Source: Clostridia bacterium (lineage in GTDB: Bacteria > Bacillota > Clostridia > Christensenellales > Aristaeellaceae). From it: a stretch of DNA of 39,243 nt. Position 1 is the stretch's first letter; each line of letters begins with the position of its first letter. Of the stretch, positions 143-19,995 are shown piece by piece. The position numbers were made by a program, and so were the translations under genes. The notes under the pieces are model-generated. The model had not been told where the DNA came from. It was given only the letters and a program-made list of their open reading frames with translations, and did not search any database. The stretch lies in NCBI GenBank assembly GCA_017443295.1, contig JAFSNT010000095.1, positions 1 through 39,243 of the forward strand, written 5' to 3'.

Positions 143-1330
143 TTACATCGTTAAAAGCTTCTCTTTGAGTTCCTTTTCCATATGGGCCAGGGTCTTCTCG
201 GCCTCGGCGCGCTTCTGGCGGCCTTCCGCCTGAATGCGGCTAACCTCGTTGATGGTATCGATCAGGTTCTGGTTGGTCTGCACCAGGGTTTCCAGATCAA
301 TGATGCCGCGCTCGGATTCCTTGGCCGTTTCAATGGTGCCCATTTTCAGGGTCTCGGCGTTCTTTTTGAGCAGCTGGTTGGTCATATCGGTCACGGCGCG
401 CTGGGCCTGCATGGCCTGCTGGCTGTGGTGCAGGCCCAGGGCCAGCACCATCTGATTTTTCCACAGGGGCAGGGTGTTCACCAGCGTGGACTGGATGCGC
501 TCCACCAGCAGGGAATTGTTGTTTTGCAGCAGGCGGATCTGGGGCGCCATCTGCATGGAGATTTGGCGGGTGAGCTTTAAGTCGTGCAGCTTCTTTTCAA
601 ACCGGTCGCACTGGGCGGCCAGGTCGTTGGCCTTCTGGGCGTCCATGGCGTCGCCGCTGGCGGCGGCCATATCCTGGAGGCGCTTCAAATCGGTGTCCCG
701 CACCTCCTGCAGCCGCTGTTCGCCCGCCACGATGTACATGGTCAGCTCGTGGAAGTATTGCAGGTTCATATCGTAGAGCTTATTGAACATGGCCACATCC
801 TTGAGCAATTGCACCTGGTGGTTTTCCAGGTTGCCAGCGATGCCCTCCACGTTCTTGGACACGTCCTCGTACTTGGCCTGGATGGAGGCGATCTGCTGCT
901 TCGCGCCGAAGAACAGGCTCTTGATGCCCTTGGGCTTTTCCCCGGCGGCGTTGAAGCCCTTGAGCTCGGTGATCAGCTTGGTCAGGATATCGCCCACTTC
1001 GCCGGTATCGCCGGTTTTCACGTTGGAAAGCACGGTGTCCGCGAAGCCGGAAATCTTCTTCTGGGCGTCCGCGCCGTAGAGCATCACATGATCCGGGTTG
1101 GTCAGATCGATGGTCTTCGAGAACGCCGCCACCTGGATCTTTTCCTCGTCGGTGAGAGAAGAATCCAGGGCCGCCACCGCTTCCTTGGCGTCCGGGGCCG
1201 CGGGGGCGTTTTTCAGATCCTCCAGCATGTCCACGGCCTTTTCCACGGTCTGCCGGGCTTCCTGCTCGGGGTGCAGGGTCAGGACGGGGGCGCTGTGCTG
1301 CTGGGCTTCGGCAAAGTTGTTTTCAGTCAT
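143..1330 (-). CDS. telA: TelA/YaaN family toxic anion resistance protein
   Basis: A 395-residue, highly charged, almost entirely helical protein. It matches the TelA (toxic anion resistance) family in length, in the central heptad-rich region with NLENHQVQLLKDVAMFNKLYD, and in the C-terminal part with QNLIDTINEVSRIQAEG. TelA proteins are soluble and linked to tellurite, antibiotic or cell-envelope stress tolerance; the biochemical activity is not established. It follows xpaC in the same direction, the pairing known from Bacillus (xpaC-yaaN). Start: ATG at 1330 with AAGGAG seven nt upstream. The 161-bp gap to xpaC is mostly one of the heptamer inverted repeats, so an operon transcript would carry that hairpin. 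The next gene starts 28 bp after the stop. Confidence 0.88.
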   Translation of the reverse strand: MTENNFAEAQQHSAPVLTLHPEQEARQTVEKAVDMLEDLKNAPAAPDAKEAVAALDSSLTDEEKIQVAAFSKTIDLTNPDHVMLYGADAQKKISGFADTVLSNVKTGDTGEVGDILTKLITELKGFNAAGEKPKGIKSLFFGAKQQIASIQAKYEDVSKNVEGIAGNLENHQVQLLKDVAMFNKLYDMNLQYFHELTMYIVAGEQRLQEVRDTDLKRLQDMAAASGDAMDAQKANDLAAQCDRFEKKLHDLKLTRQISMQMAPQIRLLQNNNSLLVERIQSTLVNTLPLWKNQMVLALGLHHSQQAMQAQRAVTDMTNQLLKKNAETLKMGTIETAKESERGIIDLETLVQTNQNLIDTINEVSRIQAEGRQKRAEAEKTLAHMEKELKEKLLTM

Positions 1331-1384: not shown

Positions 1385-1490
1385 GAGAGTTGAGCGTTGG
1401 GAGTTGAGAGTTGAGATTTATATGGTCTATTGAAAAGCGTTCACAGAAAACAGACTGTGCTATCTCAACTCTCCACTCTATGCGCCACTC
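1385..1490. repeat. Heptamer inverted-repeat element A
   Basis: The left arm (1385-1419) is five tandem 7-mers: GAGAGTT, GAGCGTT, GGGAGTT, GAGAGTT, GAGATTT. After about 42 nt the right arm (1462-1490) carries a partly decayed inverse copy. An 11-nt core, GAGAGTTGAGA, is perfectly inverted, and the outer units are diverged. The right arm starts directly after the xpaC stop codon. The element fills the xpaC-telA gap. Its plan matches elements B, C and D although the unit sequence differs. Confidence 0.75.
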
Positions 1491-1491
1491 T

Positions 1492-2208
1492 TTACGTCCG
1501 CTGCTGGGCCTGCGCCTGGGCGGTTTGCTGTGCCTGCGCGGTTGCCTGCTGCTTCTTCATGCCGGAATCGATCAGGCCGTCCTGCCGCAGCATAGTTTCC
1601 ATCACGTCGATGTCGGTGGACAGGTCCAGCATATCGTCCTGATACAGGGCGTTCAGCTGTTTGTCGAAGGCTTTGAGCACGGTGTCCATGGCTTCCCGAA
1701 TCTGGGCACGGGTGGCCTGGGCTTCCTGGCCCTTTACCTGGCGCTCGTCCATTTTGCGGTAGCCCTCCAGCATTTTCAGGGTGGTGGGCATATAATAATC
1801 CATGAAGCGGCGAATCTGGGGCGCTTTGTCGGGCTTTTCGGCCACGGTGCGGAAGATGCGGTTGGCCACGTCCTCCAGCTGATCCATCTGGGTGGACAGC
1901 TCCGCGTCGGGGATCAGGTCGTTTTCCTTCCGGATCTGCGCCAGCATTTCCTGGCCCTTGTCCACCAGGGTGTCCACCGCCGCGTCCCCGGTCTTGGGAA
2001 TGGGCTGCTGTTCGGGAGCGTGCTTGGAGGTGTCCAGCCCCTGGGCCATAATATACACGATGCGCCCGGCCAGCAGGGCCACGCCCGCCGCGATCAGATA
2101 ATGCTGCCAGCGGTACAGCTTAAAGATCAGGGAAAACAGCGCTACCACCGCGCCGATGGTCAGGCAGGCGATCACGAATGCCTTGGAATTGTTGTTTTTC
2201 TTCATCAT
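1492..2208 (-). CDS. xpaC: XpaC family membrane protein
   Basis: A 238-residue protein with two N-terminal membrane helices (about residues 10-28 and 36-54, with FVIACLTIGAVVALFSLIF and YLIAAGVALLAGRIVYI). A helical cytoplasmic domain follows, ending in a Gln/Ala-rich tail (ATAQAQQTAQAQAQQ). Layout and length fit the XpaC family (named for 5-bromo-4-chloroindolyl phosphate hydrolysis), which typically precedes telA. The true role is unknown; the pair is usually linked to envelope stress. Two ATGs sit in tandem at the start, and either could be used. A good sigma-A-type promoter lies about 125 bp upstream, giving a leader of roughly 118 nt. The low-complexity tail runs straight into repeat element A after the stop, so the 3' end may vary among relatives. 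Confidence 0.8.
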   Translation of the reverse strand: MMKKNNNSKAFVIACLTIGAVVALFSLIFKLYRWQHYLIAAGVALLAGRIVYIMAQGLDTSKHAPEQQPIPKTGDAAVDTLVDKGQEMLAQIRKENDLIPDAELSTQMDQLEDVANRIFRTVAEKPDKAPQIRRFMDYYMPTTLKMLEGYRKMDERQVKGQEAQATRAQIREAMDTVLKAFDKQLNALYQDDMLDLSTDIDVMETMLRQDGLIDSGMKKQQATAQAQQTAQAQAQQRT

Positions 2209-2332
2209 CTTTTCCCCCTTCCGTTTGGTGCGGAAAAATCATAGCAAAGTCAGGGAGGAAACGCAAGCCGATTCCGCTGAATCATACATTTTCTCCGCTG
2301 AAAGCGGCGTCCCACCGCTTTTGAGCGCGTTC

Positions 2333-2361
2333 AGTATACCACAATCACAAGGCCATTTCAA
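2333..2361 (-). promoter_or_regulatory. Promoter of xpaC-telA operon
   Basis: On the minus strand TTGAAA (2361-2356) and TATACT (2338-2333) are separated by exactly 17 bp. Transcription would start near 2326. Confidence 0.7.
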
Positions 2362-2396
2362 CTGTGAGCCGCATTAGAAAACCATTAGAAATAAGG

Positions 2397-2427
2397 AAAA
2401 AACGCCGCCCGGCGCATCCGGACGGCG
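2397..2427 (-). terminator. Intrinsic terminator after mrp
   Basis: A GC-rich stem pairs 2403-2412 with 2418-2427 (one mismatch, 5-nt loop). On the minus strand six T follow (2402-2397). It starts 11 bp after the mrp stop and lies upstream of the xpaC promoter. Confidence 0.75.
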
Positions 2428-2438
2428 GCAGTATATGC

Positions 2439-3257
2439 TTACGCAAGAATTTTGGTGATGGCGTCGTTGAGCCAATCGCCCTCGAACAGCTCGATCAGCC
2501 CGGCGTCGCAGGCGGCGGCCAGCTTCTGGTTGATGGGCAGCTTGCCCAGCACCTCGGTGCCGAAGCGCTCCGCGATTTCGTCGGCATGGCTTTCGCCGAA
2601 CACGGCCACGTGCTTGCCGCAGTCGGGGCACAGGGCGTAGCTCATGTTTTCCACGATGCCCTTCACGGGAATGTTCATCATGTTCGCCATGTTCATGGCC
2701 TTTTCCACGATCATGCCCACCAGCGCCTGGGGGGTGGAAACCACCACCGCGCCGTCCACCGGCACGGACTGGAACACGGTCAGCGGCACGTCGCCGGTTC
2801 CCGGAGGCATGTCGATGAACATCACGTCGATGTCGCCCCACAGCACGTCGGTCCAGAATTGCTTCACGGTGCCCGCGATGACGGGGCCGCGCCACACAAC
2901 GGGGGCGGTTTCCTCCTCCAGCAGCAGGTTCACGCTCATCAGCTTGATGCCCGTGCGGCTTTGCGCCGGCAGAATGCCTTCCTCGTTGCCCATGGCCGGG
3001 TCCTTGATGCCGAAGGCCTTGGGAATGGAGGGGCCGGTCACGTCGGCGTCCAAAATGGCGGTCTTGCAGCCCGCCCGCTGGGCCAGCACGGCCAGCAGCG
3101 CCGTTACCAGGGATTTGCCTACGCCGCCCTTGCCGCTCATCACGGCAATGACCTTTTTGATGTTCGTGCCCGCGTGGGGCTTTTCGATCAGGCTTTGCTT
3201 GTCCCGACTGGGGCAGTTCGCCCCGCAGGAGGAGCAGTCATGGGTGCATTCGCTCAT
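2439..3257 (-). CDS. mrp: Mrp/NBP35-type iron-sulfur cluster carrier ATPase
   Basis: A 272-residue P-loop ATPase of the Mrp/ApbC/NBP35 family, which hold a [4Fe-4S] cluster between two subunits and pass it to client proteins. The N-terminus has a cysteine cluster, CTHDCSSCGANC (residues 4-15), as in NBP35-like members. The deviant Walker A motif GKGGVGKS is at about 42-49. The motif FIDMPPGTGD (about 147-156) follows, and CPDCGK near residue 211 supplies the paired cysteines that bind the bridging cluster. The gene stands alone between its own promoter and terminator. Start: ATG at 3257 with a GAAGGGAAG element upstream. ParA-like ATPases share the P-loop, but the CxxC and PPGTGD motifs are specific to this family. 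Confidence 0.93.
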   Translation of the reverse strand: MSECTHDCSSCGANCPSRDKQSLIEKPHAGTNIKKVIAVMSGKGGVGKSLVTALLAVLAQRAGCKTAILDADVTGPSIPKAFGIKDPAMGNEEGILPAQSRTGIKLMSVNLLLEEETAPVVWRGPVIAGTVKQFWTDVLWGDIDVMFIDMPPGTGDVPLTVFQSVPVDGAVVVSTPQALVGMIVEKAMNMANMMNIPVKGIVENMSYALCPDCGKHVAVFGESHADEIAERFGTEVLGKLPINQKLAAACDAGLIELFEGDWLNDAITKILA

Positions 3258-3294
3258 TGCTGTTTCTTCCCTTCAAAATATTCCATGGAGCTTC

Positions 3295-3322
3295 ATTGTA
3301 ACAGAGATACGGGATTTGTCAA
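3295..3322 (-). promoter_or_regulatory. Promoter of mrp
   Basis: Consensus TTGACA (3322-3317), a 16-bp spacer and TACAAT (3300-3295) on the minus strand, about 38 bp before the ATG. It is one of the strongest promoter matches in the window. Confidence 0.8.
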
Positions 3323-3582
3323 CAACATTTAGCCGGTTTTGTAGGGAAACGTTGGGGACTCTTGTCCGCATCCTCAATCGGCGCAAGTCCGCTTCATGCG
3401 GACATTGCTTGTTTCGGATGATCTCACCGCCGATGAAATTCCCGCCGCAGGCGGTCATCGGCGGTTCGTCCCCCAAGCCCCCGACCAAAGGTCTTCGACC
3501 TCTGGACACCAATAGGCGAAAAGACTTGGTTGGTAGAAACAGACAACTTCCGCCTGTCGCTGGGAGATACGAAAGTTAGAAG
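3323..3582. other. Gene-free stretch with hairpins, left half
   Basis: No credible reading frame is present on either strand. A hairpin pairs GTCCGC and GCGGAC (3387-3403). A longer one pairs ACCGCCGATGA (3426-3436) perfectly with 3455-3465 and has an inner CCGCC/GGCGG stem. A small one lies at 3489-3501 (AGGTC/GACCT). It is contiguous with the four-way-junction structure at 3583-3707. The whole 590-bp space between mrp and htpG may be one structured element or a decayed repeat. Confidence 0.5.
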
Positions 3583-3707
3583 GCTTCTGGCCCAAGAAAG
3601 CCGGGAAAATCCCAGGGCGAAAGCGAGCTTTCCCCTGGGATATTTCCTCGGCTTTCCCCGGATGCTGCGCATCCGGGTTGGCCGCCAAAGGCGGCCGGGC
3701 CAGAAGC
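3583..3707. other. Compact four-way-junction structure, possible structured RNA or repeat element
   Basis: An outer stem pairs GCTTCTGGCCC (3583-3593) perfectly with 3697-3707. Inside it three hairpins follow with almost no unpaired bases. The first is a long imperfect stem of 3596-3617 with 3633-3656, capped by GAAAGC/GCTTTC. The second is CCGGATGC/GCATCCGG (3658-3676). The third is GGCCGCC/GGCGGCC with an AAA loop (3680-3696). The fold is seen directly; whether it is transcribed is unknown, and no promoter was found next to it. The remainder up to 3795 shows no gene. Confidence 0.5.
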
Positions 3708-3795
3708 ACAAGGTCGTTAAGCCGGGTTGTTCTCTTTAAGCAGCAGCGGAAGGTTGCTTGTTCGTCACATCACGCTTATTCCGCAGGAGAGGGGT

Positions 3796-3839
3796 CCAGG
3801 GGCATCATGCCCCTGGTGGGGTGCGGGGCAAAGCCCCGC
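3796..3839 (-). terminator. Twin hairpins downstream of htpG, probable transcription end
   Basis: CCAGGGGCAT/ATGCCCCTGG around a single C (3796-3816) is followed by GCGGGGC-AAA-GCCCCGC (3823-3839), 11 bp after the htpG stop. There is no clear U-run, so it may be an RNA-stabilising 3' structure rather than a classical terminator. Confidence 0.4.
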
Positions 3840-3849
3840 CGTCTTCCCC

Positions 3850-5709
3850 TTACGCCTTTTCCGCCAACTGGGCCACCAGCTCGTTGCTGCGGGCGATGAA
3901 GGATTTCAGGTCTTCCGCTTCCAGGGGGCGGGAGGAGAGACGGGCCAGGTCAAAGAGCTGCTTGCAGAGCAGGGTGGTCACGTCGCCTTCTTCCATGGCG
4001 GCCAGGGCGCGGATGGTGGGGCAGAGGCGGTTCAGCACCAGGGTGTACTTGCTGGGGAAGCCGAAGTCCTGGCCGTACATGGCGCTCATTTCCTTGTAGC
4101 GGCGCACCTGTTCTTCTTCCGTCAGCACCACGGGCAGGGTGTGGTCGGAGAGGGCTTCGATCTTCACGGTCAATTCCTTGTCGCCCAGAGCGTCCCGGAA
4201 CAGTTTTTCCATGGCGGCCTGGTCGATGTCCTTGCCCTCTTCGCTTTCTTCGGTGAGGCCGGACACGTCGGCGTCCACGCGGACGAACTGCAATCCGTCG
4301 TTGCCGCCGCCGAATTCCATGAAGCTCATGAAGTTCATGTCGATCAGGGTGTCCATCACAGCCACGTCGATGCCCTTTTCGGTGTAGAGGGCCACGGCGG
4401 CCGCCTGACGGTTCTGTTCGGTGGTGTAGTACACCTTCTTTTCAGCTTTGCCCTCGTTGCGGGATTTGTATTCGTCCAAGGTCAGATATTCGCCCGCCGT
4501 GGTTTTGAAGAGCAGGCTGCCCTTGACCATATCATAGAATTTGGCGTCCCGCACGCAGCCGTATTTCACGAAGGGATGAATGTCGTCCCAGTAGGTTTCG
4601 TACTGCTTGCGCTCGGTGTTGAACAGGCCGTTCAGCTTGTCCGCCACCTTCTTGGTGATGTGGGCGGAGAGCTTCTTCACGCACCCGTCGTTTTGCAGGA
4701 AGGAACGGGAAACGTTCAGGGGCAGGTCGGGGCAGTCGATGACGCCTTTCAGGAGCATCAAAAACTCGGGAATGACTTCCTTGATGTTGTCCGCCACGAA
4801 CACCTGACGGTTGAACAGCTTGATTTCGCCCTCCTGGCCGCCGAAATCCTTCTTGATGCGGGGGAAGTACAGGATGCCTTTCAGGTTGAAGGGGTAGTCC
4901 ACGTTCAGGTGTACCCAGAACAGCGGATCCTCGAAGGTGTGGAACAGCTTCTGGTAGGTTTCCTTGTATTCCGCTTCGGTGCAGTCCTTGGGGTTTTTCA
5001 GCCACAGGGGATGGGTGTCGTTGATGGGTTTTTCTTCCTTGGCCTTTTCTTCTTCCTCCGTGCCGGTGGGTTCGTCGGGGTCCTTCTTGGTTTCTTCCTT
5101 GCTCAGGTCTTGCAGGTAAATGGGCGTGTTCATGTAGCCGCAGTAGCGGTCCAGCACCCCGCGCACCCGGTAGCCGTCTAAGAATTCCTTTTCGTCCTCC
5201 ATGATGTGCAGGATGATGGTGGTGCCGCGCTCAGTGCGCCCGCCGTCCCGCATGGAGAAGGCCATGCCGTCCTCGCTCTCCCACAGCACGGGGGCGGCGC
5301 CGTCCTGGTAAGACAGCGTGTCGATGGTCACCTTGTCGGCGGCCATGAAGGCGGAATAGAAGCCCAGGCCGAAGTGGCCGATGATGCCGCCCTTATCGTC
5401 CCCGGTGTAGTTCTTCAAAAACTCCTCGGCGCTGGAGAAGGCCACCTGATTGATGTACTTTTCCACTTCCTCGGCGGTCATGCCGATGCCGTTGTCGGTG
5501 AAGCGCAGCTCGCCCGCTTCCTTGTCCACGGTGACGGTCACCCTCAGGTCCTCGTCGGTTTCGCCTTTCAGCATCTTATACTTGGTGATTGCGTCGCAGC
5601 CATTGCTGACCATTTCGCGGATGAAAATGTCCTTATCGGAATACAGCCAGCGCTTGATCACCGGCATAATGTTTTGCGCGTGAATGGAAATATTGCCTTT
5701 CGTTTCCAT
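3850..5709 (-). CDS. htpG: Molecular chaperone HtpG (Hsp90)
   Basis: A 619-residue Hsp90. The N-terminal GHKL ATPase domain shows REMVSNGCDAITK (ATP/Mg-binding Asn, about residues 31-43), DNGIGM (about 74-79) and GHFGLGFYSAF (about 110-120). The middle domain carries the conserved arginine in PLNVSRSFLQND. The C-terminal dimerisation domain ends without an MEEVD-like tail, as expected in bacteria. A charged, Lys/Glu-rich linker (KEETKKDPDEPTGTEEEEKAKEE) sits between the N and middle domains. The protein is an ATP-dependent dimeric chaperone of the cytoplasm. It is monocistronic, with its own promoter and a perfect CIRCE box upstream, so HrcA control is likely. Confidence 0.96.
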   Translation of the reverse strand: METKGNISIHAQNIMPVIKRWLYSDKDIFIREMVSNGCDAITKYKMLKGETDEDLRVTVTVDKEAGELRFTDNGIGMTAEEVEKYINQVAFSSAEEFLKNYTGDDKGGIIGHFGLGFYSAFMAADKVTIDTLSYQDGAAPVLWESEDGMAFSMRDGGRTERGTTIILHIMEDEKEFLDGYRVRGVLDRYCGYMNTPIYLQDLSKEETKKDPDEPTGTEEEEKAKEEKPINDTHPLWLKNPKDCTEAEYKETYQKLFHTFEDPLFWVHLNVDYPFNLKGILYFPRIKKDFGGQEGEIKLFNRQVFVADNIKEVIPEFLMLLKGVIDCPDLPLNVSRSFLQNDGCVKKLSAHITKKVADKLNGLFNTERKQYETYWDDIHPFVKYGCVRDAKFYDMVKGSLLFKTTAGEYLTLDEYKSRNEGKAEKKVYYTTEQNRQAAAVALYTEKGIDVAVMDTLIDMNFMSFMEFGGGNDGLQFVRVDADVSGLTEESEEGKDIDQAAMEKLFRDALGDKELTVKIEALSDHTLPVVLTEEEQVRRYKEMSAMYGQDFGFPSKYTLVLNRLCPTIRALAAMEEGDVTTLLCKQLFDLARLSSRPLEAEDLKSFIARSNELVAQLAEKA

Positions 5710-5785
5710 AGTTTTTCTTGCCTCCGTTCAGGTTTTCCGGCGGGTTTGGGACGGCGAAAAACCGCCCTTCCCCGCGTTCGCCGCC

Positions 5786-5814
5786 ATTATAGCACGGTTC
5801 CAGCCAAAATGCAA
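5786..5814 (-). promoter_or_regulatory. Promoter of htpG
   Basis: TATAAT (5791-5786) is perfect and TTGCAT (5814-5809) stands 17 bp upstream on the minus strand. The CIRCE box begins 7 bp beyond the -35. The predicted start point lies about 70 bp before the ATG. Confidence 0.7.
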
Positions 5815-5821
5815 CAAAAAA

Positions 5822-5848
5822 TTAGCACTCGATAAAATAGAGTGCTAA
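5822..5848. promoter_or_regulatory. CIRCE operator (HrcA binding site)
   Basis: TTAGCACTC, nine bases, GAGTGCTAA: both half-sites match the CIRCE consensus perfectly. It lies between the serine hydrolase stop (5880) and the htpG promoter. The nearest gene reading away from it is htpG. hrcA is not in the window. Confidence 0.93.
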
Positions 5849-5879
5849 CAAAGGACGATTTTCCCTTTCGCGGGTCTAT

Positions 5880-7124
5880 TTACGGCAGGTCTTCATCCAC
5901 CACGAAGCTGCCGGGGCCGTCGATCTCCGTTCCGCCATCCAGCCATTCCCCCACCCGCAGGAGGATGCGTTCGGCCTTGGCGTCCAGTTCGCCGCTGCCG
6001 CTGCGGCCCACGCCGTTCATCACCAGGGCCACGGCGGTGCGGGAATCCGGCTCCACGAACAGATCGGTCAGCATGCCCACCCAGCGGCCCTGATGGCCGT
6101 ACCAGGTGCGGCCGTCGGAAGCGGTAAAGCGGTACACGCCCAAGCCGTAGGGGCTTTCCCCGGTGACGGTGGATCCCCGCACGGTGCGCTGATCGGCCCG
6201 CATTTCCGCCGCCGCCTGGGGCGAAAGCAGGCGCACGCCGTCGGCCGCGCCGCCGCAGGCCAGCACCTCGCCGATTTTCGCCATGCCGGACAGGCTGATG
6301 TACAGGCTGCCCACGGAGGTGCGGTAATGGCTGTCCGGGTCGCAGGTGTCCTCGTAGAACGCCTGATCCTCCTCCAAGTATTTTTCCGCCTTCATGTACA
6401 CCTCGCCCTCCTGGGTATAGGTGCGGGACAGCGGTTCGGGATCGGGCAGCAGGTGAGCGGCGTAAGCGGCATTGATGCCCAGGGGGGCGAAAACGGCGTC
6501 GCGCATATAGGCGTTCAGGCTTTGGCCGGAGGCCCGCTCGATGGCGCTGCCCATGATGCCGCCGTTCAGGTTGGCGTATTCGTAATGCGTGCCGGGTTCA
6601 TACTTGTCAAAATAGCGGTTCTGATCCAGGGTGATCTTTTCCCACGCGGGAGCGGTGGCGTAAGGCGCGTCGCCCAGCAGGGAGGAGGTGTGGTTCATGG
6701 CCTGGCGCAGGGTGACGGGCGCGTCGGGATAGCGGGGATTGCGGATGTGCGCGCCCTCGGCGCCGTAGGTGAGGGGCGCGTCCAGGCCGATTTTGCCTTC
6801 CTCCACGAGCCGCATCACGCCCACGGCGGTGATCATTTTGGTCAGGGAGGCCACCTTGAACACCGTGTCCCCGTCCACGGGCCGGCCGTTATACTTGGCG
6901 TCCGCGCCGTAATAGTATTCGTACAGCGTTTCCCCGTCCCGGCTCACGATCACGCCCCCGCCGATGGCCTCCGACCGGGTAAACAGGCGCAGAAAATAGG
7001 CGTCCGCCGCCGCGGCCGTTTCCTCGTCCAGCTCGCACAGGCCCCCCAAGGGGACGGTGAGCAACGCTAAGATCAGCGCCAGGGGCGCCAGCCGTTTTAC
7101 AGCTTTTCCAGCCGTTCCAAGCAT
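5880..7124 (-). CDS. Secreted serine hydrolase, class C beta-lactamase / DD-peptidase-like family
   Basis: A 414-residue protein with an N-terminal signal sequence (basic KAVKR, then LAPLALILALLTVPLGG). The beta-lactamase-type serine hydrolase fold follows. The catalytic SxxK is SLTK (about residues 93-96), the YxN is YAN in HYEYANLN (about 182-189), and the third box is HQG in WYGHQGRW near residue 340. These enzymes include DD-carboxypeptidases, esterases and class C beta-lactamases; the substrate cannot be assigned, and penicillin-binding or peptide-hydrolysing activity outside the membrane is only inferred. The gene overlaps the end of parB by 28 bp. An AGGAG-like TGGAGAG lies about 11 nt before the ATG, so it is probably translationally coupled to parB. 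That pairing is unusual and could tie cell-wall work to the chromosome partitioning operon. Confidence 0.85.
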   Translation of the reverse strand: MLGTAGKAVKRLAPLALILALLTVPLGGLCELDEETAAAADAYFLRLFTRSEAIGGGVIVSRDGETLYEYYYGADAKYNGRPVDGDTVFKVASLTKMITAVGVMRLVEEGKIGLDAPLTYGAEGAHIRNPRYPDAPVTLRQAMNHTSSLLGDAPYATAPAWEKITLDQNRYFDKYEPGTHYEYANLNGGIMGSAIERASGQSLNAYMRDAVFAPLGINAAYAAHLLPDPEPLSRTYTQEGEVYMKAEKYLEEDQAFYEDTCDPDSHYRTSVGSLYISLSGMAKIGEVLACGGAADGVRLLSPQAAAEMRADQRTVRGSTVTGESPYGLGVYRFTASDGRTWYGHQGRWVGMLTDLFVEPDSRTAVALVMNGVGRSGSGELDAKAERILLRVGEWLDGGTEIDGPGSFVVDEDLP

Positions 7125-7948
7125 TGATACAATCTCTCCAAATCGTCTTCGCTTTCGTATTGCAGAATGATTCTTCCGTGCTTGCGGTTGCCCTTGAACA
7201 CGGTGCGCAGGCCGAAGGTCTCCCGCATGCGGCTTTCCATATCCTGCAATTCCAGGGGCAGGGGCCGGGGGGCGGGCTTGGGCTTGGGCAGGCTGGCTTC
7301 CGGCTGGGCGGCCAGCTTTTCCAGGGCGCGGACACTGAGGCCCTCCAAAATCACCAGCTGGGCCAGGGCCACCTGACGTTTTTCATCCTCGATGCCCGCC
7401 AGCACCCGGGCGTGGCCCGCGCTGATGCGGCCCGCGATCACGTCCTGCCGCACGGTTTCCGGCAGGGTCAGCAGCCGCAGGCTGTTGGCCACGGCGGGGC
7501 GGGATTTGCCCAATTTTTTCGCCGCCTGCTCCTGGGTGTAGCCGCAGGACTCCATGAACTGCTTCATGGCGGCGGCTTCCTCAATGGGGTTCAAATCCTC
7601 CCGCTGCAGGTTTTCGATCAGGGCGGCTTCCATCTGCTCGGCGGGGGTGAAATCCCGCACGATGCAGGGCACCGCGTCCAGCCCCGCCATGCGGGCGGCC
7701 CGGAAACGGCGTTCCCCCGCCACGATGCGGTAGCGCCCGTTCTTTTCCACCACCAGCAGGGGCTGCAGCACCCCCGCCTGCCTGATGGAATCCGCCAGCG
7801 CCTGGAGGGAGGCTTCGTCAAATTCCCGCCGGGGCTGATCCGGGTTCCGGTCCAGCTCGGTGACGGCGATCATGCTTACCGTGTTTTCCAGATCGCTGCT
7901 TTCGGGCAGCAGGGCGTCCAGGCCCCTTCCCAGGCCGGTCTTCTTCAT
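7097..7948 (-). CDS. parB: ParB/Spo0J chromosome partitioning protein
   Basis: ParB family: an N-terminal MKKTGLGRGLDALLP peptide (the ParA-activating segment); the CTPase/sliding-clamp domain with the NPDQPRREFD and GERRFRAAR boxes; a central helix-turn-helix (YTQEQAAKKLGKSRPAVANSLRLL) that reads parS; and a C-terminal dimerisation domain. From the start used here it is 283 residues. An in-frame ATG at 7966 would add six residues (MEWNCL). The 7948 start is preferred because a TATAAT at 7978-7973 would place the RNA start about at 7966, and because MKKxGLGRGL is the usual family start. No parS-like TGTTTCACGTGAAACA site is visible in the window. It follows parA, but repeat element B separates them. 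Confidence 0.93.
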   Translation of the reverse strand: MKKTGLGRGLDALLPESSDLENTVSMIAVTELDRNPDQPRREFDEASLQALADSIRQAGVLQPLLVVEKNGRYRIVAGERRFRAARMAGLDAVPCIVRDFTPAEQMEAALIENLQREDLNPIEEAAAMKQFMESCGYTQEQAAKKLGKSRPAVANSLRLLTLPETVRQDVIAGRISAGHARVLAGIEDEKRQVALAQLVILEGLSVRALEKLAAQPEASLPKPKPAPRPLPLELQDMESRMRETFGLRTVFKGNRKHGRIILQYESEDDLERLYQCLERLEKL

Positions 7949-7972
7949 AAGGCAATTCCACTCCATCCTAAG

Positions 7973-7978
7973 ATTATA
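7973..7978 (-). promoter_or_regulatory. Possible -10 box for parB beside repeat element B
   Basis: A perfect TATAAT on the minus strand lies directly next to the last heptamer of element B. The -35 position would fall in the pyrimidine-rich arm and is not consensus, so this is a tentative promoter. Confidence 0.3.
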
Positions 7979-7980
7979 GG

Positions 7981-8092
7981 GGAGGTAGGAGGTGGGAAGT
8001 AGGAGGTAGGAGGTATTTTTTGTCCATAAAGACGCGTGATTTCTTTATGAACAATATAAACTTCCTACTTCCTACCTCCTACTTCCTACCTA
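7981..8092. repeat. Heptamer inverted-repeat element B
   Basis: The left arm is five 7-mers (7981-8015): GGAGGTA, GGAGGTG, GGAAGTA, GGAGGTA, GGAGGTA. A 45-nt A/T-rich spacer follows, then the right arm (8061-8092), which is the reverse complement with 26 of 32 positions matching. Five of the six mismatches are A/G transitions, and four of those would be G-U pairs in plus-strand RNA. It fills the parA-parB gap. Confidence 0.85.
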
Positions 8093-8111
8093 ATCAAAGT
8101 ATCTCTCGGCA

Positions 8112-8879
8112 TCATTTCAAATTCTTATTCTTCTTAATGACTTCCTGCGACAGCGCCATATACGCTTCCGTGCCGGTGCTGCGGGGATCGTACATATGAA
8201 TGGGCAGGCCGTGGCTGGGGGCTTCGCCCAAGCGCACGGTGCGGGGCACGGTGGTTTTGAACACTTGGGATTTGAAGTGCTTTTTCACCTCCGCCACCAC
8301 CTGCAGGCCCAAATTGGTGCGGCCGTCCAGCATGGTCAGCAGCACGCCTTCGATTTCCAGCCCCGGGTTCAGGCCCCGCTTCACCCGCTGCACGGTGTTC
8401 ATCAGGGCGGTGACCCCTTCCAAAGCGTAGTATTCGCACTGAATGGGGATCAGGATGCTCTGGGCGGCTGTGAGGGCGTTCACCGTGAGCAGACCCAGGG
8501 AGGGCGGGCAGTCGATGATGGTGAAATCATACTGGGCGCGGATAGGTTCCAGCGCCGCCCGCAGGCGGTATTCCCGGCGGCTCATGCTGGCTAATTCCAG
8601 CTCGGCCCCGGCCAGGCGGATATCCGAAGGGGCCACCCACAATTTATTCTGTCGGGTGGACGCCAACGTGCTGTCCAGGGTGCATTCCCCCAACAGCGCT
8701 TCATACACCGTTTTCTTTCCGGCCTTCACGCCCAAGCCGCTGCTGGCGTTGCCCTGGGGATCCATATCCACCAGCAGGGTTTTCTTTCCCGCCTCGGCTA
8801 AGCAGGCCGCTAAATTCACGGCGGTGGTGGTTTTGCCCACGCCGCCCTTCTGATTGGCGATGCAGATGATCTTGCTCAC
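8112..8879 (-). CDS. parA: ParA/Soj chromosome partitioning ATPase
   Basis: A 255-residue ParA/MinD ATPase. The deviant Walker [15 protein letters not shown] is at about residues 11-24, [16 protein letters not shown] (Walker A') at about 35-50, and the Walker B region [11 protein letters not shown] at about 118-128. Length and the C-terminal [17 protein letters not shown] region match chromosomal Soj rather than plasmid ParA, which has an extra N-terminal domain. It binds DNA as an ATP dimer, and ParB stimulates its ATPase during origin segregation. It is flanked on both sides by heptamer inverted repeats: element C upstream and B between it and parB. Confidence 0.95.
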
Positions 8880-8955
8880 GGAAAAATCAAATCCTTTTTC
8901 TTGGAAGTAGGTTTTTGCTCGATCGAAGGATAAATCAGGAACGTTTTATCTGACC

Positions 8956-9060
8956 GAAAGTGGAAAGTGAAAAGTGGAAAGTGGAGATTTGTCATGATCT
9001 TCAAAATCAATTGGCAGCATTTTTTTATTTTCACTTTTCACTCTCCACTTTTCACTTTTT
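8956..9060. repeat. Heptamer inverted-repeat element C
   Basis: The left arm is GAAAGTG, GAAAGTG, AAAAGTG, GAAAGTG, GAGATTT (8956-8990). The inverted right arm (about 9030-9060) reads, on the minus strand, as repeated GAAAAGT/GGAGAGT units. The spacer is about 40 nt. The element starts 4 nt after the stop of the 157-aa gene and fills most of the gap to parA. The closing GAGATTT unit is the same as in element A. Confidence 0.75.
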
Positions 9061-9064
9061 TGCG

Positions 9065-9538
9065 TTACAGCCATTCCCTCCACCGGAACGCCGGATAGCA
9101 GCTTTTTGCCACCGACGCGATGGCGGCAAGCTCCTCCCCGGTCTGGAGGGGGGCAAAGCGGGTATACAGGGCGCGCAGGGCGGACAGGCTGGGATGGCGC
9201 AGGGCGTAATCCCGCAGGCATTGCAGGTGCTTTCCGTCCACGGGCAATTCCAGAAAGGGCAGCAGCATCAGCTCGTCGGCCATGGCGGCGAAATCCTCCA
9301 GCCGGGAGCGCACCCAGGTGCCGTCGTCCAAAGGGATGAGCATTTTCCCGCCCGTGGCCTGCCGAACGGCGCGGAACAGCAGGCTGTCCAGCTCCCCGGC
9401 CAGGCCGTCCCGGCTGCCCCCGAAGGTAAAGCCGTTCAGCCGCCCGGCGATCTCCCGCGCCGTGGGCGTCAGGGCCTCCAGCAGCGGCCCGCCCAGCCAG
9501 GGCCGAAGCACGATCATCACCTGTGCCTGGGAAACCAT
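9065..9538 (-). CDS. Hypothetical protein upstream of parA
   Basis: A 157-residue protein that I do not recognise. It has no signal peptide or membrane helix. It is mixed helical with several Trp/Phe-Leu segments (VMIVLRPWLGGPLL at the start; DGTWVRSRLEDFAAMADELMLLPFLELP in the middle; AKSCYPAFRWREWL at the end). The start is well supported: GGGGAGG lies eight nt before the ATG, and a TATAAT stands about 60 bp upstream. It reads in the same direction as parA-parB and ends at element C, so it is likely the first gene of that operon or its immediate neighbour. The codon use looks like that of its neighbours. The function is unknown. Confidence 0.7.
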   Translation of the reverse strand: MVSQAQVMIVLRPWLGGPLLEALTPTAREIAGRLNGFTFGGSRDGLAGELDSLLFRAVRQATGGKMLIPLDDGTWVRSRLEDFAAMADELMLLPFLELPVDGKHLQCLRDYALRHPSLSALRALYTRFAPLQTGEELAAIASVAKSCYPAFRWREWL

Positions 9539-9598
9539 GGGCTTTTCCTCCCCTCACGGGCGTATCATCCGTTCAATGGAAAGCTTCTGCGATATCTC

Positions 9599-9604
9599 AT
9601 TATA
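9599..9604 (-). promoter_or_regulatory. -10 box upstream of the 157-aa gene
   Basis: TATAAT on the minus strand. The corresponding -35 position (TTTCCT) is weak, so the promoter call is tentative. Confidence 0.35.
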
Positions 9605-9653
9605 CACGATTTCCGCCGGAAAGGAAACAGTTTTTAAAGGAAAACCGGGGATT

Positions 9654-9836
9654 GCGCATGAACTGCAAATTGGGATTTATGAAGGTAGGAGGTAGGAAGT
9701 AGGAGGTAGGAGGTTTATTTTGCAAAAACAAAAACACGAAAACCGGACCTCGTTCACTTTGGAGGACTATATAAAACCTCCTACCTCCTACCTTCTACCT
9801 CCTACCTCTGCAAATCTCAATTTCTCATTCATGCGT
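9654..9836. repeat. Heptamer inverted-repeat element D with extended arms
   Basis: The left heptamers (9681-9715) are GAAGGTA, GGAGGTA, GGAAGTA, GGAGGTA, GGAGGTT. The inverted right set (9775-9809) matches 31 of 35, all differences being transitions. Unlike A-C, the inversion continues about 27 nt outwards: GCGCATGAA plus AAATTGGGATTT on the left against their inverse (AAATCTCAATTT, then TTCATGCGT) on the right. The 59-nt spacer shows no gene. The element lies in a 585-bp gene-free region between the 157-aa gene and mreB. The rest of that region (9845-10123) holds small hairpins, such as GGAAT-TTTT-ATTCC near 10060, and no promoter I can defend. Confidence 0.8.
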
Positions 9837-9844
9837 GAGCCGTG
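9818..9844. repeat. 27-bp dispersed motif, copy 1
   Basis: A 27-bp word with core TTTCTCATTCATGCGTGAGC is found again at 35485-35511 with one base changed. Its inner part is the right outer arm of element D, and an inverted, diverged version forms the left outer arm. Confidence 0.6.
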
Positions 9845-10123
9845 CAGGAGGGTCAGGGCGAACGACTGCCGCGTGGTTCGGCGCGGCTTCATTATGTCAT
9901 AGGCCGGGAAATGCGTCAAGGGCCATTTCTGGGGATTTCAGGGAGCGCCGCGCGGCCGCCCTGCCGATTTTTCGGGAAAAGTGGCGAATGAACGCCGGAA
10001 TCGTTGCAATTTTTTCTAAAAAGTAGCAATCGAATCCCAAAAATGTGGGCAAAAGAAGGAATTTTTATTCCCGCGTCGAATAAAACCCACGGTAGAAAAG
10101 CAGCAAGCAAAGGAGAAGCAGGA

Positions 10124-17700: not shown

Positions 17701-19995
17701 TCATGCGTCCACTTCCGCCACCGCGTAGGACGGGGAGAACGCGCCGCTGCCGCACATTTTGTAATAACCCCGGAAAATGCGGTCCACGGCGATTTGCACG
17801 CCTTCCGTGTTGGAACCCAGCAGGATGATCAGGAACTGCTGGCGGCTGTAGCGGGTGAGGACGTCCACGTTGCGGATGGTCTGCTGAATGGACTGCTCCA
17901 TGTAATACATGGCTTTTTCCAGCTCTTCGGGCAGCGGGGGTTCGTTGGCGTCCGTTTCCAGGCTGATCATGATGAGCTTAAAGGGATGGGAGAACCGCTT
18001 TTTGATGTTCTCAATAAATTCGTACAGGGTGGCGAACTGCCTGTATTCCACGTCCATGGCCCCATGGTAGCTGCCGCTGGTGTGGATGCCGGTGACGATG
18101 CGGTTCACGTCCACCGTTTCGCTGCGGAAGATTTCGGAATCCGGGCTGTAGAACTGATAGCTGTTTTTGCCGTTCTGCTTCACGTAATACAGCGCCCGAT
18201 CCGCCCGGTTATAGGCTTTCATATAGGTATCGGCGGGGCCGCACATCACCAGCCCTGCGGAAATGGTGGCCATGGAGGTTTCGGCGTCGGCGTTTTTCCT
18301 TTGCTCGAAATCGGCGATGATCTTTTGCATGCCGGCCTCCGCTTCTGCCTGGGTGACGCCCTTCATGAAGCAAAGGAATTCGTCCCCGCCCAGACGGCAG
18401 CAAACGCTGTTTTGGCCGTTGGCCGTCAGCGCCTCGCCCACGCAGCGCAGCGCCCGATCCCCGGCCTTATGGCCGTAGATATCGTTGATCTTTTTCAGAT
18501 TGTCCAGATCCAAAAACGCCAAACAGCCGCCGCTGCCTTTCATTGCCTGCGCGATGGCCGCTTCGCCGATGCTCCTGTTCATGACGCCGGTGATGGCGTC
18601 ATAATCGTCTGCCGCACTCTGGGTGACGAATTTCTCCATGATCTCATGCAGCAGCGCGGAGGACGCTTCCAGGTCTCCCGTGTCTTCCCGCGCGTCCTGC
18701 CGGATGATATTGCCCAGCAGGCCCTTGTCCCACAAGCCGATGAACACGTCCACAAAATGGGGGTCGAACTGGGTACCCCGGCCATCGATCAGCTCCTTCC
18801 GGATGTATGCCGGATCGCACGCCCTTCTGTACGCGCGGTGGGAATTCATGGAATCGAAGGCGTCCGCGATGGTCACGATGCGGGCCTCTTCGGATATTTC
18901 TTCTCCTTTCAGCCCTTGGGGGTAGCCTTTGCCGTCGTAGCGTTCGTGGTGGCTTCTGGCCACGACCTCGGCTGTTTTAATGATGCTTTTGCTCTTTAGG
19001 ATGTCCCCGCCGATGGTGGTGTGGGATTTGATGATGCCGTACTCCGCCTCCGCCAGCTGGTTGGGGTTGTTCAGAATGGAATCGGGCACGCCGATTTTGC
19101 CGATGTCGTGCAGCAGGGCGGCGTATCTTAGGTCGTTGACCCTGTTTTCCTCCCAGCCCAGGGCTTCGGCGATTTTCACGGCGTACTGGCTCACCCGGGA
19201 GGAATGGTTTTTGGTATACACGTCCTTGGCGTCGATGGCGTCCACCAGGGAACGGACGACTTGCAGAGAGAGCTGCTTATTCTCGGTGGCTTTTTTCTCC
19301 ACCTCCTGGGAAAGCTGCTCCTGGCGCAGGATGAAGGGCCGCACCGTGACCAAGGACATGATGGCCGCGATCAGCACGGTGGTGAGCATGATGGCGACGG
19401 CGCTTAAAATGGTGGAGGCGGTGCGCTCCGAAAGCTGGGCCTCGAACCATGCGGAGGCGAAATCGGCGGCGATGATGCCCGCCACCCTGCCGGAGGAATC
19501 AAATACCGGGCTGTACGCGCTGTAAAAGGTGCCCCAGGCGTCGGTATAGGGCGTTTCGTCCAGGGACGCCTTGCCCCGGGCCGCGGCGGCGAGGGCTTCC
19601 GTATATTTCACTTCCTCGCCGAATTCGCCGGGATCCACCGGATCCGTGTCCAGGATAAAGGTGAAGCAGCCGTTCCCTTCGTCCTTCACGCCGTACACAT
19701 ATTCCAGCTCTGTGTTGTTCCGAAACACATCCAGGGTGTTGTAAATCTGCCGGTATTCCGGCGTATCCGCGTCCTCCGCTTTCAGCGCGCCCAAAATGTC
19801 GCCGTTGATGGAACCCGCGGCGCAGTTGGCGATGTCCAGCATGCGCTGCTGGATGGATTTCTTGATGCCGAGCCTGCTGTTGATAATGGAAACCACGCAA
19901 AACACACTGCCGGAGAGGATGGCGATGATCTCCACCAGCAGAATGATTTTTGTGGACAGCTTGGCAAGCCGCAGCTTTTTGAACGGGTTCTTCAT
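17701..19995 (-). CDS. Cache-HD-GYP-GGDEF membrane signalling protein
   Basis: 764 residues. TM1 is at about 17-38. An extracytoplasmic Cache-like sensor (about 40-185) contains YTDAWGTFYSAYSPVFDSSGRVAGIIAADF-type features, and TM2 is at about 195-217. A coiled linker leads to an HD-GYP domain with HDIGKIG (296-302) and HHERYDGKGYP (349-359), which predicts c-di-GMP hydrolysis to GMP. It is followed by a canonical GGDEF domain (RLGGDEF, 534-540) with FLDLDNLKKINDIYGH, which should be a competent cyclase. The last about 130 residues look like a second, eroded GGDEF fold ending RYSRQQFLIILLGS. A Cache-sensed ligand would set the balance. It is monocistronic with a good promoter. Start: ATG at 19995 after AGAGGA. 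Confidence 0.9.
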   Translation of the reverse strand: MKNPFKKLRLAKLSTKIILLVEIIAILSGSVFCVVSIINSRLGIKKSIQQRMLDIANCAAGSINGDILGALKAEDADTPEYRQIYNTLDVFRNNTELEYVYGVKDEGNGCFTFILDTDPVDPGEFGEEVKYTEALAAAARGKASLDETPYTDAWGTFYSAYSPVFDSSGRVAGIIAADFASAWFEAQLSERTASTILSAVAIMLTTVLIAAIMSLVTVRPFILRQEQLSQEVEKKATENKQLSLQVVRSLVDAIDAKDVYTKNHSSRVSQYAVKIAEALGWEENRVNDLRYAALLHDIGKIGVPDSILNNPNQLAEAEYGIIKSHTTIGGDILKSKSIIKTAEVVARSHHERYDGKGYPQGLKGEEISEEARIVTIADAFDSMNSHRAYRRACDPAYIRKELIDGRGTQFDPHFVDVFIGLWDKGLLGNIIRQDAREDTGDLEASSALLHEIMEKFVTQSAADDYDAITGVMNRSIGEAAIAQAMKGSGGCLAFLDLDNLKKINDIYGHKAGDRALRCVGEALTANGQNSVCCRLGGDEFLCFMKGVTQAEAEAGMQKIIADFEQRKNADAETSMATISAGLVMCGPADTYMKAYNRADRALYYVKQNGKNSYQFYSPDSEIFRSETVDVNRIVTGIHTSGSYHGAMDVEYRQFATLYEFIENIKKRFSHPFKLIMISLETDANEPPLPEELEKAMYYMEQSIQQTIRNVDVLTRYSRQQFLIILLGSNTEGVQIAVDRIFRGYYKMCGSGAFSPSYAVAEVDA

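Follow-up and report, generated by a model that had tools for sequence, protein, structure and literature searches.

We analyzed a 39,243-nucleotide stretch of DNA from a rumen bacterium of the Clostridia (contig JAFSNT010000095.1; the window), in which four intergenic elements, here called A to D, consist of tandem heptamers followed by a loop and by the same heptamers inverted. We propose that these hairpins are non-autonomous foldback mobile elements of about 110-170 bp, similar to miniature inverted-repeat transposable elements (MITEs), whose arms change by slippage, and we give this reading a probability of about 0.6. A non-autonomous mobile unit had been one of several roles listed in the original prediction, which was made from the letters of the window alone, and it is the option favored by our observations that individual elements are absent in close relatives, that homologous loops recur at dispersed loci, and that a copy sits in a phage late operon. 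The four elements were found at roughly the coordinates first given (Table 1), and their period-7 arrays were picked up by Tandem Repeats Finder (TRF).

A genome-wide hairpin family with a period of seven

The window belongs to a 3.46-Mb assembly (G000), of which we sampled 637 kb (10.9 kb masked), and 1.21 Mb was sampled from a close relative (G041), the genome from which locus L031 comes. Hairpins were called with a unit-blind detector, which looks for a period-7 tract and an inverted partner across a loop of less than 130 nt and requires no fixed unit; periods 5, 6, 8, 9, 10, and 11 and dinucleotide shuffles served as controls. This yielded 67 hairpins in G000 and 76 in G041, where one call (L159:6736) appears spurious. 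The 60 stretches of G000 outside the window contained 63 hairpins at period 7, compared with 0, 0, 0, 1, 0, and 0 at the control periods in the order given. Three consecutive units of the pattern GRRRGTN occur 569 times in the G000 assembly (reversed pattern, 50), and 38 loci from other taxa contained no hairpin after either of two dinucleotide shuffles. Among 40 relatives, the triple pattern was matched in ten, all of the same genus (10 out of 24, with totals of 2 to 365), and in none of the 16 that belong to other families of the order. The shared plan of the four elements and their several unit types hold, but the view that every unit fits GRRRGTN proved too narrow, as the genus also uses CAGAGTW, GGAGATA, GGAGTGA, and RGAACTT.

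Anatomy of the hairpins

We distinguish at least five unit types, of which GGAGGTA, GAGAGTT, and GAAAGTG are the main three. The main unit consensus sequences contain no runs of three G, and an inner motif (TTTATATAGTC) is common to the consensus of all three types. Both arms are of one unit type in 136 of 143 elements, a count that is partly built in because the detector demands complementary arms; among the remaining seven, L193:14410 is a real mixture and the others are unclassed or of minor types. Outside the arms we observed two terminal repeats. Outer repeat I (AAAGRACRCTTTAARNCA) is present in many copies: its 16-letter pattern has 15 exact sites in the G041 assembly, every one of them next to a heptamer arm (reversed pattern, 0), it stands at both ends of 27 elements that span 138-171 bp (≤3 substitutions per 12 positions), and 45 of the 82 sample matches with 2 mismatches lie within 60 bp of a detected element. 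Outer repeat II (containing AAATTGGGATTTRT) surrounds element D beyond its heptamers, within the span 9654-9836 originally assigned to it, and also terminates other repeats with a different interior, so that the layers look modular. Read inward from its ends, a complete element would thus begin with outer terminal inverted repeat I or II, although many copies show none or a decayed one; about 4-6 tandem heptamers follow as the arm, and after the inner motif and a variable loop the same parts return inverted. A second repeat family of about 430-530 bp (L101:7547-8080, L193:13044-13460, and L156:7038) ends with the AAATTGGGATTTGT motif, which equals D's outer repeat.

Insertion polymorphism, dispersed loops, and a phage site

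Element C is missing from loci L031, L032, and L038 and element D from L031 and L038, and the gap matching C's site is shorter by 140 bp or more in L033 and L036. C and D were gained in the lineage of the window, and C is a recent insertion. For 26 G000 elements a syntenic place in G041 was available, and comparison by eye showed no heptamer hairpin at 13 of these sites, one of the same type at 7, and one of another type at 6; among the seven same-type placements, A and its copy on the contaminating contig L087 share a single site. In one case of a swap, L114/L135, both genomes show recognizable outer repeats on either side of a core that differs. Further empty-site polymorphisms include L154:14208 and L156:2566. 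Presence and absence with clean edges at syntenic loci had been put forward as a check; the absences in close relatives were found, but the edges are not always clean, a point taken up below.

The loops connect elements across loci: 41 of the 143 elements fall into 15 clusters of homologous loops, with one unit type per cluster, and while some clusters are orthologous pairs, others join unrelated loci within one genome. Individual gaps, in turn, are occupied by different units in different genomes. Of 24 same-genus genomes (own genome included, G010 without the locus), 6 have a heptamer hairpin between parA and parB, with four kinds of unit (by eye), and the unit types differ from that of B in G006, G003, G011, G014, and G020; the 200 bp upstream of parA hold a hairpin in 4 of the 24, again with different units. 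In phage contig L278, a GGAGGTA hairpin separates the terminase gene from the portal gene (PHROGs names); of two related prophages, L333 is empty at the homologous junction and L334 has a mixed GAGAGTT/CAGAGTT hairpin there. A search of the viral contigs for relatives of the L278 portal protein returned only itself, and one G041 element compared with plasmid and phage records had no match.

A CAGAGTR hairpin at L278:6414-6524 lies in frame within the C-terminal tail of the reading frame of the head maturation protease. At two places in G041 (L187:2988-3141 and L120:17772-17874), another hairpin family (GGGGGAAACCATTCTTTGG...AAGAATGGTTTCCCCC) is present in gaps that hold a heptamer element in G000. 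A composite insertion at L154:6374-6750 combines ACAGAG heptamers with TGTCATTCTGAGC...GAAGAATCTC, a repeat that occurs in many bacteria.

Placement, arm evolution, and alternatives to mobility

With genes called by a simple home-made gene caller, none of 142 elements from the two genomes lies inside a gene. Divergent gaps contain 8 elements compared with 36 expected by length (p ~1e-9), convergent gaps 25 compared with 19, and co-directional gaps 101 compared with 79; within the last group, 86 of the 101 copies are nearer the upstream stop codon. This placement fits the purging of insertions into genes, promoters, or ribosome-binding sites.

The same preference for sites just past stop codons and avoidance of divergent gaps would suit RNA hairpins under selection, each of which would follow an upstream gene in a polycistronic mRNA and signal termination, processing, or stability. 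The stems are stable (-31 to -70 kcal/mol for the window elements, each of which folds better as a single strand than its dinucleotide shuffles, with z of -3.7, -8.5, -4.0, and -10.3 for A to D), and one and the same gap is re-occupied across related genomes. Yet on the transcript strand G.U mismatches are hardly more common than A.C mismatches (89 vs 83, in 28 vs 26 elements, with transcription assumed along the flanking genes), the orientation of asymmetric loops is random (30 vs 34, 37 ambiguous), and the parA-parB gap lacks a heptamer hairpin in 18 of the 24 same-genus genomes (by eye). A run of at least 6 T in the 10 nt after the hairpin was found in just 4 of 101 cases, and intrinsic terminators are rejected on this ground. 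Element B, in which four of six mismatches had been noted as G-U compatible, illustrates the dependence on strand: four of its six inner mismatches are indeed G.T on the plus strand, but parAB are encoded on the minus strand, where these pairs read A.C and wobble pairing is possible for just one of the six. We thus see no support for selection on RNA pairing, and we regard an RNA role as improbable. The hairpins might instead never move but originate and evolve where they stand, through heptamer slippage together with template switching between the arms (quasipalindrome correction), a course that would be favored if the polymerase slips in steps of 7 nt. Among six pairs of the same type (A in the window and L087, and five between G000 and G041), all six arm indels are multiples of 7 (7, 7, 14, 14, 21, and 42 nt), with the 42-nt indel and one of the 14-nt indels visible in longer slices, and loop indels measure 1, 2, and 4 nt; period 7 also recurs in other taxa with unrelated units, and template switching has been reported to create and mend stems (sections of PMC8794818). 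Against this stands that unrelated loci share homologous loops, the inner motif, and the outer repeat, that relatives lack particular elements, and that the phage site is occupied in some contigs and empty in another. A further point against it is that the two arms of an element resemble each other no more than they resemble the arms of other elements of that type, and arm-to-arm gene conversion is accordingly not seen. None of the six arm indels is matched in the opposite arm (base changes were inspected pairwise by eye in two of the six pairs), which counts against an RNA role. As to arm likeness, register-corrected tests gave no sign of homogenization, and own arms were if anything slightly less alike (one-sided permutation p of 0.001, 0.013, and 0.16 for the three types). 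Because own arms show no excess likeness and indels are unmatched, arm complementarity is seemingly inherited with the copy and then decays. In-place slippage is likely the source of changes in unit number, but the dispersed homologous loops tell against it as the only process, and we consider a history without mobility unlikely.

The position of the window elements around parAB raises the further alternative of protein-bound iterons that serve the host in partition, in the nucleoid, or as regulator sites, comparable to parS of plasmid pSM19035 with its 7-bp iterons. Tandem 7-bp units near parAB would agree with this, and partition sites made of 7 to 10 contiguous heptads are a known layout in Firmicutes plasmids (sections of PMC4498918). 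However, runs of four elements begin in two further 8.3-kb spans of the sample as well (L154 and L192), so the cluster at parAB is not special, and the hundreds of pattern matches across the genome speak against the link to parAB that had been suggested. In the window, chromosomal parS (TGTTTCACGTGAAACA) has one match, with 3 mismatches, at 18176 and away from the elements, while an exact parS pair is located on another contig (C219). A function tied to parAB or parS is rejected on account of the genome-wide spread, the other contig's parS, and the other four-element spans. The unit also differs by locus and by species, which is hard to reconcile with a single host DNA-binding protein, and 14 of the 24 same-genus relatives have no GRRRGTN match, though other units are possible in some of them. 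Host-serving iteron arrays thus seem very unlikely to us.

How the elements might spread, and what weighs against it

For the foldback reading, we envisage a protein supplied in trans that recognizes the ends of the element, whether folded or double-stranded, by binding to the repeated heptamers, and that places copies of it in further gaps between genes; selection would then spare copies that land just past a stop codon. Replication slippage would alter the heptamer number and thereby explain arm length, and the master copies of each lineage would carry their own unit. Repeated binding sites would also explain why tandem units are kept, as proposed for Galileo, whose tandem repeats may be extra transposase binding sites (sections of PMC3573991). 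The inner motif and the outer repeats could be used as handles in a search for the enzyme, and mobile hairpins would account for part of the intergenic variation among close rumen strains.

Several results weigh against this reading. No target-site duplication was detected in the 27 two-ended elements (boundaries of -4 to +6, lengths of 2-9, 300 partner shuffles). Domains of Y1 transposase (PF01797), IS110 transposase, and reverse transcriptase had 0 matches in the G000 and G006 assemblies, both high in copies, so these three families, the only ones examined, are rejected as the resident mobilizer in those assemblies. In G041, no longer element was seen at any of the 15 exact outer-repeat I sites, in incomplete assemblies and with decayed ends not followed. 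A portion of the motif matches lies away from detected elements: 37 out of 82 for outer repeat I and 17 out of 43 for outer repeat II (2 mismatches each), and 16 out of 70 for the inner motif (1 mismatch). Some of these are truncated or decayed copies, and many look like chance matches. The edges are not clean where copies bring extra flanking sequence (C, L112, L138, and L156), and the replacement of unit types within one gap is unusual for simple MITEs. Finally, the G000 assembly is 86% complete with 7% contamination.

Similar hairpins in other taxa and viral contigs

To the 38 loci from other taxa (581 kb) the detector assigned 9 period-7 hairpins, compared with at most one at any other period; one of the nine, in an AT-rich stretch (L069), scores at period 9 too. 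In metagenome-assembled genomes of Ruminococcus type (L068, L072, L074, L075, and L076, at positions of ~9.3-9.7 kb), the same gap is occupied by different units, before a gene starting with MADKRDYYEV that is presumably dnaJ or dnaJ-like. Two Synergistota loci use the units CGTGAAT and CGTTACG. Of 291 genomes of the class, 34 have three consecutive AATKRAY units; in some, such as G298 and G090, the reversed control equals or exceeds this pattern, and in others, such as G160 (85 to 0), it is absent. A total of 11 of 30 fetched AATKRAY loci contain a period-7 hairpin. Viral contigs scanned with the units of the genus gave 54 loci, of which 14 contain period-7 hairpins (34 in total, some with units that were not searched for), while periods 5, 6, 8, 9, 10, and 11 gave 0, 2, 3, 0, 1, and 1. 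Because the loci were chosen by heptamer patterns, the viral and AATKRAY fractions are not base rates. Contigs L289, L301, and L316 each carry several period-7 hairpins of different units.

Since viral contigs and distantly related bacteria contain similar hairpins, a class of mobile bacterial DNA that has received little study is suggested. A broader version of our proposal, which we offer tentatively and hold to be rather doubtful, is that hairpins with tandem-heptamer arms are hardly recognized foldback elements of Bacillota, Synergistota, and phages, in which period seven and inversion are kept and the unit turns over by lineage, with the heptamers as binding sites of a diversifying mobilizing protein that would insert without target duplication. 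As one inverted 7-nt plan is found with unrelated units in several lineages, the descriptive puzzle of bacterial heptamers becomes a testable one: which protein, and why seven.

Relation to known repeats

Bacterial MITEs and REP/REPIN sequences are short, non-coding, palindromic, intergenic, and high in copy number. Drosophila Foldback and Galileo elements make target-site duplications, and the Nostoc tRNA-Leu intron has heptanucleotide stems. The present hairpins resemble MITEs and REP/REPIN sequences in being short, non-coding, palindromic, intergenic, and present in many copies; they are dispersed, bear terminal inverted repeats, and show insertion polymorphism with empty sites. They differ by their arms of tandem heptamers, and neither target-site duplications nor cognate insertion-sequence ends were found; the Y1 family that gave no match in G000 and G006 is that of the RAYT transposase of REP/REPIN systems. 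As in foldback elements, the terminal inverted repeats are internally tandem-repetitive and arm lengths are independent, and in one Galileo group, too, the number of tandem repeats differs between the arms of a copy (sections of PMC3573991). According to the same sections, however, the Drosophila elements are eukaryotic, have far longer inverted repeats, and include copies that encode a transposase, whereas the present hairpins are built of 7-bp units with no target duplication and no coding copy found. Among the unpaired period-7 tracts, no inverted partners enclosing a gene over kilobases turned up in sampled stretches of up to 20 kb.

Heptamers are over-represented among longer bacterial repeats, for which a reason is not agreed (sections of PMC4692102 and PMC4679880). 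Although the inverted form had been thought new for Bacillota, and no report from that phylum was among the papers listed, paired inverted arrays have been published for Xanthomonas (sections of PMC4692102) and likely for Geobacter (sections of PMC2700814); among the open-license full texts listed, none gave an account of inverted heptamer elements in Clostridia or of their mobility. The GGGAATC arrays of Xanthomonas form 70 and 75 convergent inverted pairs in two genomes (Rehm et al., 2015; sections of PMC4692102), and these and the GGGGA(C/T)T arrays of Nostoc are intergenic tandem heterogeneous heptamers that lie nearer the upstream gene, with few in divergent gaps. Our hairpins likewise consist of heterogeneous tandem heptamers in convergent pairs, intergenic and near the upstream stop. 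In the Xanthomonas and Nostoc arrays, by contrast, each organism has a single G-rich unit family, which was studied for G-quadruplexes, and the sections of that article consulted mention neither a shared inner motif or outer terminal repeat nor polymorphic insertion or turnover of units. In Geobacter metallireducens, dispersed families contain 4-5 tandem heptanucleotides, one class of which is drawn looped with paired strands, but they are predicted regulator sites or RNA elements with 49 and 16 copies and the units GGGACCG and MTYCTGA, and one family also occurs inside genes (sections of PMC2700814). The TAACTGA arrays of Beggiatoaceae are intergenic and numerous as well; in contrast, they are mostly direct, have a single fixed unit, lie upstream of start codons, and include one inverted repeat only (sections of PMC4679880). 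Inverted heptamer arrays are thus already known from Xanthomonas; to that picture the present set contributes several unit types within one genome, the inner motif and outer terminal repeats, polymorphic insertions, among them one at a phage site, and the turnover of units where the gap itself stays the same.

Features of the window

Table 1. Hairpin elements and associated features in the window
Feature	Position	Strand	Remarks
Element A, GAGAGTT type	1385..1490	.	Left arm ~1385-1416, right arm ~1462-1490
Inner motif of element A (TTTATATGGTC)	1417..1427	+	Sequence, family consensus
Element B, GGAGGTA type, between parA and parB	7981..8092	.	
Inner motif of element B, two-mismatch variant (TTTATATTGTT on minus strand)	8050..8060	-	Sequence, consensus
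Segment missing from L031 and L038, holding element C plus left flank	8898..9064	.	
Candidate remnant of outer repeat I (CAGGAACGTTTTATCTGACC), next to element C	8936..8955	+	Inferred by eye
Element C, GAAAGTG type, upstream of parA	8956..9060	.	
Segment missing from L031 and L038, holding element D plus outer repeats	9648..9880	.	
Outer repeat II, left copy, around element D (contains AAATTGGGATTTAT)	9655..9682	+	Inverted repeat; motif also terminates other repeats
Element D core, GGAGGTA type, loop reversed, in divergent gap before mreB-like gene (Pfam MreB)	9683..9807	.	
Inner motif of element D (GACTATATAAA on plus strand)	9765..9775	-	Sequence, consensus
Outer repeat II, right copy, around element D	9808..9836	-	

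Element A lies between a TelA-family gene (143-1330, minus strand; Pfam TelA) and a gene in the same direction (1492-2208, minus strand). Its counterparts are found on contig L087, with a 7-nt indel and base changes, and at L031, where it is much altered. Rfam had no match in the window at the gathering threshold. Two contigs of G000, C11 (L087) and C267, seemingly come from a second species that is ~93-94% identical and includes a second parB, and would represent contamination; some G000 contigs start within a heptamer repeat. At 3340-3720, the window has some 380 bp containing GC-rich inverted repeats that L031 lacks; the matches on either side overlap there by 8 bp.

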